Under the pieces are notes generated by a model. The model was not told the DNA's origin. It made no database searches and worked only from the letters and a program-made list of their open reading frames with translations. Source: Bacteroidales bacterium (GTDB taxonomy: Bacteria > Bacteroidota > Bacteroidia > Bacteroidales > UBA7960). From it: a stretch of DNA of 64,000 nucleotides. Position 1 is the first letter of the stretch; each line of letters opens with the position of its first letter. The position numbers and the translations under genes are program-made. Below are positions 11,715 through 54,782 of the stretch, in pieces. The stretch spans positions 22,781-86,780 of the forward strand of contig SKRM01000009.1 in the NCBI GenBank assembly GCA_007118495.1, read 5' to 3'.

Positions 11715-12632
11715 ATGGAAACTCAAGAAACCAATCAATCAAATGTCAACTCCAACAATGAAAAAATCTACCGTATTACCATTGTTGTGCTTGGTGTATT
11801 GGTCTTATTGCTGGCAATTTTATGGGTAACCAGCAGGCAAAGCCTGAAAGAGGTCACAATTGAAAGAGAGATTGCAAGTGAGTTAAATGAAGAACTTCAA
11901 AACGAGCTCGATTCAGTGCTCAATGAGTATTATTTGGTAAGGCTTGAATATGACAGTGTTTTGGCTGACAAGGATAGCATCATTGAGGCAAATGCCCAGG
12001 AAATTCAGGGTCTGATTGCCCGTCAGGCCGATTATTACCGCATCAGAAGGCAACTTAACCTTTTACAGGAAATTACCCAGAACTATGTGAGGGAAATCGA
12101 CAGCCTGTATACTGAAAATCGTGTATTGAAGGCAGAAAATGTTCAGATGCGTGAAGAGATACAGGTTGTTACACGCCGATCAACCCAACTTGCACAGGAG
12201 AGACAGGTGCTGGAGTCGAAAGTTGAGGAGGCAGCCACCCTGCGCGCTTACCAGATTGAAGCCACTTCATTCAGAGTCAGGGGGCGTGATCGTGAAGATG
12301 AGACCGACCGGGCATCAAGGGTTGAGCAGATCCGTGTATGTTTTCTTATCGGAGAAAACCCCATAACCCCTCCCGGCGATTACAATGTCTATATGCGTAT
12401 TGCTGATCCTGCCGGAAATATTATCAGGATAAGTGATGATGATGCCTACGCATTTATGCATCAAGGTGACACACTGCAGTTTTCAGTGAAGGGTGTGTTT
12501 AACTATCAAAACAGGGAGTTGAATAAATGCCTCACATGGCAGCGGATAGCCGAATTCGAACCAGGTATTTATTCGATTTCCATCTACACCGACGAATTCC
12601 GCCTTGGTGAAACTGCCTTACAACTCAGATAG
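11715..12632 (+). CDS. Membrane-anchored coiled-coil protein with C-terminal globular domain (paralogue A)
   Basis: N-terminal TM helix, long coiled coil, C-terminal domain resembling that of the 12900-13817 ORF. Confidence 0.75.
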   Translation: METQETNQSNVNSNNEKIYRITIVVLGVLVLLLAILWVTSRQSLKEVTIEREIASELNEELQNELDSVLNEYYLVRLEYDSVLADKDSIIEANAQEIQGLIARQADYYRIRRQLNLLQEITQNYVREIDSLYTENRVLKAENVQMREEIQVVTRRSTQLAQERQVLESKVEEAATLRAYQIEATSFRVRGRDREDETDRASRVEQIRVCFLIGENPITPPGDYNVYMRIADPAGNIIRISDDDAYAFMHQGDTLQFSVKGVFNYQNRELNKCLTWQRIAEFEPGIYSISIYTDEFRLGETALQLR

Positions 12633-53559: not shown

Positions 53560-54423
53560 TCAGGTTATCATCTTTTCAATGGGAACCACAAGGATACCCT
53601 CTGCACCCGCATCCTTTAAATTGTCTATAACTTCCCAAAAGTCATCTTCTTTTACAACCGAGTGGAGTGAAAACCACCCTTCAATGGCCAATGGCATGAT
53701 GGTAGGGCTTTTGACTCCGGGCAGCAGCCTGGTAATGGCATCAATTTTGTCGCCAGGTGCATTCAACAGGATGTATTTGTTGTTCTCAGCACGCTGTACT
53801 GAGGTAATCCTGAATAACAACTGGTCAAGCAGTTTTTTTTGTTGGGGCTCAAGGTCGGGTCTGGCAATAATCACGGCCTCACTTTCCATTACACGCTCCA
53901 CTTCTTTCAATCCATTACTTAACAATGTGCTGCCAGAGCTTACGATCTCGAAAATGGCATCTGCGAGACCCAGTCCGGGTGTGACCTCAACAGAGCCGCT
54001 GATTGAATGAATTTCGGCATCGATCTGGTTTTTGCGCAGAAACTCCTCCAGTAAAAACGGGTAGGAGGTGGCAATTCTCTTTCCGTTCAAGCTTTCTCTG
54101 CCCTGGTAGGATAATTTTTCGGCAATGGCAATAGATAGCCTGCACCGTGAAAATCCAAGCGGGCGAATAACCTCCACATTCTTATTCTTTTCAAGCACCT
54201 CATTTAGTCCCAGGATGCCCGCGGCCGCCACCCCGTCTTCAACATACTGGGGTATGTCATCATCACGCAGAAATATCAGCTCAAGTGGAAATCCCCTGGC
54301 TTTGGCTTTCAGGTGGTTGGTTCCGTTCTGGATTCGGATACCGCATTTTTTTAAAAGGCTCAGGGAGCCTTCGCTCAGACGACCACTTTTTTGAATGGCC
54401 AGTGTCAGTGTGTTTTCTTTCAT
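53560..54423 (-). CDS. hisG: ATP phosphoribosyltransferase (long form)
   Basis: LTLAIQKSGRLSEGSLSLLKKCGI; C-terminal regulatory domain present. Confidence 0.93.
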   Translation of the reverse strand: MKENTLTLAIQKSGRLSEGSLSLLKKCGIRIQNGTNHLKAKARGFPLELIFLRDDDIPQYVEDGVAAAGILGLNEVLEKNKNVEVIRPLGFSRCRLSIAIAEKLSYQGRESLNGKRIATSYPFLLEEFLRKNQIDAEIHSISGSVEVTPGLGLADAIFEIVSSGSTLLSNGLKEVERVMESEAVIIARPDLEPQQKKLLDQLLFRITSVQRAENNKYILLNAPGDKIDAITRLLPGVKSPTIMPLAIEGWFSLHSVVKEDDFWEVIDNLKDAGAEGILVVPIEKMIT

Positions 54424-54440: not shown

Positions 54441-54474
54441 AAAAAAAAAGATCCGCCAATGGAGGCGGATCTTT
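54441..54474 (-). terminator. his attenuator terminator 2 (hisG-proximal)
   Basis: Minus strand AAAGATCCGCC-TCCATT-GGCGGATCTTT with a run of T's. Confidence 0.88.
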
Positions 54475-54501
54475 CTGCAATTGTATGGTTTGTGTTTCAT
54501 T

Positions 54502-54579
54502 TTAATCCATACCTGAGCTTGTCCGCCGCCTGGAGCGCAGATGATGTACATGCATGGTATGGTGGTTTAAGAAGGTCAT
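54502..54579 (-). promoter_or_regulatory. Putative second his leader peptide MTFLNHHTMHVHHLRSRRRTSSGMD*
   Basis: 26-codon ORF read on the minus strand; five His in residues 6-13; lies between two intrinsic terminators upstream of hisG. Confidence 0.7.
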
Positions 54580-54587
54580 GGTATGAT

Positions 54588-54620
54588 AAAAAAAAGCCCC
54601 GGGATAATTCACCGGGGCTT
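54588..54620 (-). terminator. his attenuator terminator 1
   Basis: Minus strand AAGCCCCGG-N9-CCGGGGCTTTTTTTTT. Confidence 0.88.
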
Positions 54621-54655
54621 ACTGGTTATGTTGCTATATGATCCATAACGACTAA

Positions 54656-54712
54656 TCAGCACCCGGTTGGGGGGTGTGTATGATGGTGGAAGTTATGGAT
54701 AGTGAAATTCAT
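54656..54712 (-). promoter_or_regulatory. Putative his leader peptide MNFTIHNFHHHTHPPTGC*
   Basis: 19-codon ORF, 5 His of 18 residues including HHHTH; followed by terminator 1; antiterminator ACCGGGUGCU can pair with AGCCCCGGU. Confidence 0.85.
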
Positions 54713-54731
54713 TTCTTGTTTTTTTCGGTTG

Positions 54732-54761
54732 TAAAAGTACATGTTTTTATTTAAAAACAAA
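54732..54761 (-). promoter_or_regulatory. Candidate Bacteroidetes-type promoter of the his operon
   Basis: Minus strand TTTG-N18-TACTTTTA, resembling TTTG/TAnnTTTG, ~20 nt upstream of the leader ATG. Confidence 0.45.
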
Positions 54762-54782
54762 AAATACTTCATTTTGTTTGCT

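Follow-up and report, generated by a model that had tools for sequence, protein, structure and literature searches.

The region upstream of hisG in the window (the whole 64 kb stretch of DNA that was analysed, from a genome assembly of 2.63 Mb in 78 contigs) carries two His-rich leader ORFs in series, each with its own intrinsic terminator. The order on the minus strand is promoter-like site, leader 1, terminator T1, leader 2, terminator T2 and hisG (Table 1). We propose that these elements form two autonomous ribosome-mediated attenuators served by one promoter and both sensing charged tRNA-His, a reading to which we assign a probability of roughly 0.8. Sequence comparison gives good support to the arrangement in series. 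We infer in addition that the two terminators respond to histidine and that their effects multiply to give a steeper or wider response.

Both units follow a common plan: segment A lies within the leader codons, segment C near or after the stop codon, and segment B between them. A can pair with C, and B can pair with the terminator. The predicted terminator hairpins (T1: -18.1 kcal/mol; T2: -20.3 kcal/mol) are both followed by U tracts. Only 8 nt separate the U tract of T1 from the start codon of leader 2, which lies 15 nt past the T1 hairpin. The original prediction had placed the second ORF and T2 on the sequence and had proposed the pairings CCATACC:GGTATGG and GGCGGA:TCCGCC; all of these coordinates and pairings were correct on re-reading, and the five His codons that it counted between residues 6 and 13 of leader 2 are present.

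Table 1. Features of the tandem leader region upstream of hisG (positions in the window)
Feature	Position	Strand	Details
Promoter-like site, Bacteroidetes-type	54731-54764	-	-33 region TTTTTTGTTTTTAAAT (54764-54749); TAnnTTTG-like -7 element TGTACTTTTAC (54741-54731)
Leader peptide 1	54656-54712	-	MNFTIHNFHHHTHPPTGC; five His codons
Segment A1	54692-54700	-	ATCCATAAC; partner C1
Segment B1	54662-54667	-	ACCGGG, immediately 5' of the stop codon; partner CCCGGT (T1 5' arm and loop start)
Segment C1	54641-54649	-	GTTATGGAT; partner A1
Terminator T1	54588-54619	-	Hairpin AGCCCCGG/CCGGGGCT and U8
Leader peptide 2	54502-54579	-	MTFLNHHTMHVHHLRSRRRTSSGMD; five His codons (residues 6, 7, 10, 12 and 13)
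Segment A2	54556-54562	-	CCATACC; partner C2, based on covariation
Segment B2	54522-54527	-	GGCGGA; antiterminator partner of TCCGCC (54469-54464)
Segment C2	54507-54513	-	GGTATGG, near the stop codon; partner A2; alternative partner CCATAC (54488-54483)
Terminator T2	54441-54474	-	AAAGATCCGCC/GGCGGATCTTT and U tract
hisG (ATP phosphoribosyltransferase)	53560-54423	-	First gene of the his operon; its protein was used to find relatives

We scanned the whole window with a detector for a short His-rich ORF followed by an intrinsic terminator. It returned units 1 and 2 and one further, weak match (a 9-aa ORF at 12453 with a hairpin of -8.6 kcal/mol). Dinucleotide-preserving shuffling of the leader did not yield even a single unit in 1,000 trials, which rules out a chance origin of the units.

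We searched for hisG in relatives at three levels: the family (47 genomes), the order (247) and the class (119). The second leader, for which a lack of conservation had been considered, is conserved: 15 genomes of the family have an alignable unit 2, and 12 have an alignable unit 1. The leaders of the relatives remain rich in His codons. In unit 2, 83.6% of the alignment cells of the A:C and B:D helices are paired, compared with 33-38% when the helices are slid along the alignment. Twelve of these cells are changed on both sides versus 4.8 in shuffles, a count that none of 500 shuffles reached. These are exactly the helices that the original prediction had named. The stem of T2 behaves similarly (87.3% of cells paired in 15 genomes; 17 changed on both sides versus 5.4 in shuffles), and the pairing of B2 with the terminator occurs across relatives as GGCGGA/TCCGCC, GGCAGA/TCTGCC, GGCGGA/TTCGCC and TTGCGG/CCGCAA.

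The helices of unit 1 are paired in 90.4% of cells, compared with 25-52% when slid. Their covariation is modest (three pairs changed on both sides; 11 of 500 shuffles as high), because many pairs of unit 1 hardly vary. All 12 genomes keep the His codons, the A:C helix, the terminator and the complementarity to its loop, and in each of them leader 1 is a short ORF, rich in His and with GC, RC or GS at its end. In relatives, the segment at the stop codon, GGGTGTTGA (GGGTGTT), pairs with AACACCC of the loop and 3' arm of T1. The antiterminator helix B:D uses segment D, which is also part of the terminator; this helix covaries in unit 2, and its complementarity is mostly invariant in unit 1. The predicted switch helices show compensatory changes that are clear in unit 2 and modest in unit 1 and that support a function of both.

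The ribosome stalling, termination, histidine response and multiplied output that we infer would proceed as follows. During histidine starvation, a ribosome would stall on the His codons and mask segment A. B (and C) would then be free to engage RNA further downstream, part of the terminator included. This would keep the terminator from forming, and RNA polymerase would continue. With ample histidine, or in an untranslated leader, A:C would lock B away and the terminator would form; in unit 1, a ribosome that reaches the stop codon when histidine suffices would additionally cover B. Since hisG would be reached only by polymerases that pass both terminators, the pair would work as an AND gate: termination would be multiplied, with a lower basal level and a steeper response as the outcome.

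We modelled the switch by constrained folding of the nascent RNA with the ribosome footprint masked. For unit 1 of the window, the fold without a ribosome was dominated by A:C (0.94; B:D: 0.02). A ribosome stalled at His codons 1 to 4 shifted B:D to 0.73-0.92, while no B:D formed with the ribosome at the fifth His codon, and its value was 0 with the ribosome at the stop codon. These predicted folds follow the classic logic of attenuation, with termination also expected when the leader is untranslated. For unit 2, B:D reached 0.99-1.0 with a stalled ribosome, was still favoured with the ribosome at the stop codon (0.87), and stood at 0.55 in the nascent state without a ribosome. As a ribosome at the stop codon of unit 2 leaves B free, termination would require ribosome release and re-formation of A:C. 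Whenever A was masked, C took a downstream partner that joined the antiterminator (in unit 1, the C1 region with 54632-54622). The model always formed the terminator once its 3' arm was complete, and the switch must therefore be kinetic. On a broader folding index, which expresses the predicted gain on stalling, the window's own units were not clearly above shuffled leaders (unit 1: +0.10, with 15% of 20 shuffled controls as high; unit 2: +0.22, with 10% as high). Across the family alignments the index averaged about +0.43 for unit 1 and about +0.19 for unit 2, with controls near 0. In these predictions the switch model holds less well for unit 2 than it does for unit 1.

The distribution of the units among close relatives is informative about how the pair arose. 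In the window's genus, eleven genomes are tandem, two carry unit 2 only (L013 and L023, inside the tandem clade) and one carries unit 1 only (L016). Behind unit 1 of L016 lies a short sequence similar to the beginning of leader 2 of L014. Unit 2 also stands alone in sister genera (L029, L030). A comparison of regions upstream of hisG in relatives had been proposed along with the tandem reading, and tandem, unit-1-only and unit-2-only loci all occur. The promoter motif could be aligned upstream of unit 1 across the genus, with one divergent copy (L025), and a TAnnTTTG-like motif is present directly upstream of the first unit in all five single-unit loci named above. Across the genus, the spacers that separate the units yielded no TAnnTTTG-like site. 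On this ground, and in view of the gap of only 8 nt in the window, we rejected a second promoter at this place. In the simplest scenario, unit 1 was inserted between the promoter and unit 2 in the genus, and single species later lost one unit or the other. L027 and L028, two further genomes placed in the genus, carry a more distant hisG (~60% identity) and one, different unit.

Among the 28 family loci, the detector found two units in 15 and one unit in 13; a second genus of the family (g5) is among the tandem cases. Two more loci are likely to be tandem: L041, judged by its upstream terminator, and L018, judged by its sequence. The detector missed T1 of L018, which has an interrupted U tract. 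Conservation, covariation, loss unit by unit and a single promoter motif all bear out the claim that two His leaders, with an antiterminator and a terminator apiece, are arranged in series. We conclude that the tandem arrangement of these predicted His attenuators is real and conserved.

We considered whether the two units, although they share a signal, act independently. The start codon of leader 2 lies so close behind the T1 hairpin in the window that folding of T1 would hide it; unit 1 would then control translation of leader 2, and the response would be cooperative. Leader 2 starts about 8-17 nt from the T1 hairpin in the window and several relatives, and directly after the U tract in L017. 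However, spacers of about 90-300 nt in L018, L019, L021, L022 and L024 indicate that tight coupling is not a general feature. We regard such coupling as doubtful; it would in any case be a refinement of tandem attenuation and not an alternative to it.

It is improbable that unit 2 is the single working attenuator, with unit 1 being a recent or decaying copy or serving mainly as a terminator for the aromatic operon upstream (pheA...aroC). Such a division would suit the position of unit 2 nearest hisG and its retention alone in the sister genera, as well as the absence of unit 1 from L013 and L023 and of any other visible terminator between the aroC stop codon and leader 1. Against it stand the elements of unit 1 kept in 12 genomes, the stronger predicted switch of unit 1 in folding, the retention of unit 1 alone in L016 and the existence of tandem loci that have no aroC in the 1.5 kb read (L022, L024 and genus g5). 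Two autonomous His attenuators in series remain the reading that we prefer.

The aromatic genes themselves (pheA...aroE-aroA-aroC, 61911-54783, minus strand) run straight into the his leader. We saw no terminator from the aroC stop codon (54783) to leader 1, so that transcripts reading through from the aromatic operon may also be gated by the his attenuators. We found no support for a link to this operon as the general cause of the tandem arrangement: some tandem loci lack aroC, and some single loci have it. Upstream of pheA (61911) lies a Phe/Tyr-rich leader ORF, MTMLNLSAYAFYFYYFGNKGVW (62088-61928, minus strand). Behind it, two intrinsic terminators stand back to back, about 10 nt from each other and without a further leader in the gap; the whole is likely an aromatic attenuator with a double terminator. 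No clear tandem leader was seen upstream of an aspartate kinase gene and two chorismate-binding enzyme genes. A 629-aa ORF at 52413-50524 (minus strand), read by eye, apparently joins HisC-like and HisB-like parts.

In the order as a whole, 75 of the 117 sampled loci have a His-rich leader and a terminator before hisG, 67 as a single unit and eight in tandem. Tandem loci occur in six families (f1, f37, f44, f60, f90 and f108), five of which are families of the order other than the window's own. Both leaders are His-rich in every tandem locus counted, and the idea that the two respond to different amino acids was discarded. A further 29 loci from other orders of the class, taken as the top matches to the window's HisG and not as a random draw, included no tandem; 16 had a single unit and the remainder none. 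With a leader of this kind before hisG so widespread, and with a helix A that overlaps the leader codons and covaries, it is very improbable that the His-rich ORFs are incidental and that the hairpins serve as constitutive terminators or as targets for an RNA-binding protein.

On the hisG tree, the tandem label requires at least 10 changes, with gains and losses pooled, L130 counted as tandem and deep branches weak; four of these changes are forced by well-supported branches. The tandem arrangement probably arose several times. A wider proposal can be put forward tentatively: serial same-signal His attenuators would be a recurrent design of the order with several evolutionary origins, and the units of the window's genus would also be mechanically coupled, through T1 acting on the start of leader 2, into a cooperative switch.

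Two other arrangements were observed in the sample. L078/L130 (G105) has two serial His-rich ORFs about 97-363 nt before hisG for which the scan detected no terminator; it is labelled tandem in the hisG tree and was left out of the survey's tandem count. Four Cytophagales-type loci (L003, L004, L006 and L012) have a His-rich ORF about 50-160 nt before an apparently GTG-started hisG with no terminator detected between the two, and control may act on translation there.

Attenuation of his operons is a textbook case with one leader, and Vitreschak et al. reportedly predicted some attenuators in Bacteroidetes/Chlorobi in 2004. A search of Rfam at gathering and relaxed thresholds gave no credible match for either unit; unit 1 scored 19.1 bits with RF00514 (His_leader) versus a cut-off of 49, and unit 2 was not listed. 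The Enterobacteriaceae his leader (RF00514) shares with our locus the His-rich leader, the competing terminator and antiterminator helices and the site before hisG. It differs in having one leader instead of two and in its set of helices, which here is A:C with B inside.

Tandem leader-peptide attenuators that share one signal did not turn up in the literature that we searched, which included few subscription papers. The earlier statement that the arrangement is undescribed in Bacteroidetes is consistent with this literature, in which a single structured 5' element of a Flavobacterium hisG is known. This element, in F. psychrophilum, also belongs to Bacteroidota and also has no Rfam match; the accessible part of that report suggests leader-peptide attenuation for amino acid operons and mentions no tandem arrangement (PMC9723704).

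The natural, conserved pair described here, together with relatives that have only the first or only the second unit, offers a ready comparison for the benefit of a second stage, which may be a lower leak, a steeper response or a wider range. The locus also documents gain and loss of such switches in a phylum in which leader-peptide control has been little studied.

Serial switches before one gene are known in other forms. Double T-boxes (PMC9413887) and tandem riboswitches such as that of metE (as cited in PMC3641672) resemble our locus in this respect, and sometimes serve one amino acid (PMC9413887). They bind tRNA or a ligand directly, whereas the sensor proposed here is the translating ribosome. 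The leader mRNA of mgtCBR in Salmonella has two short ORFs and two attenuators, which respond to two different signals (ATP and proline) and work without intrinsic terminators (PMC3641672); in contrast, both leaders of our locus are rich in His, and an intrinsic terminator follows each of them. Precedents exist for the single His attenuator and for tandem attenuators that read different signals, and a series of two that share the same signal is a variant of them.
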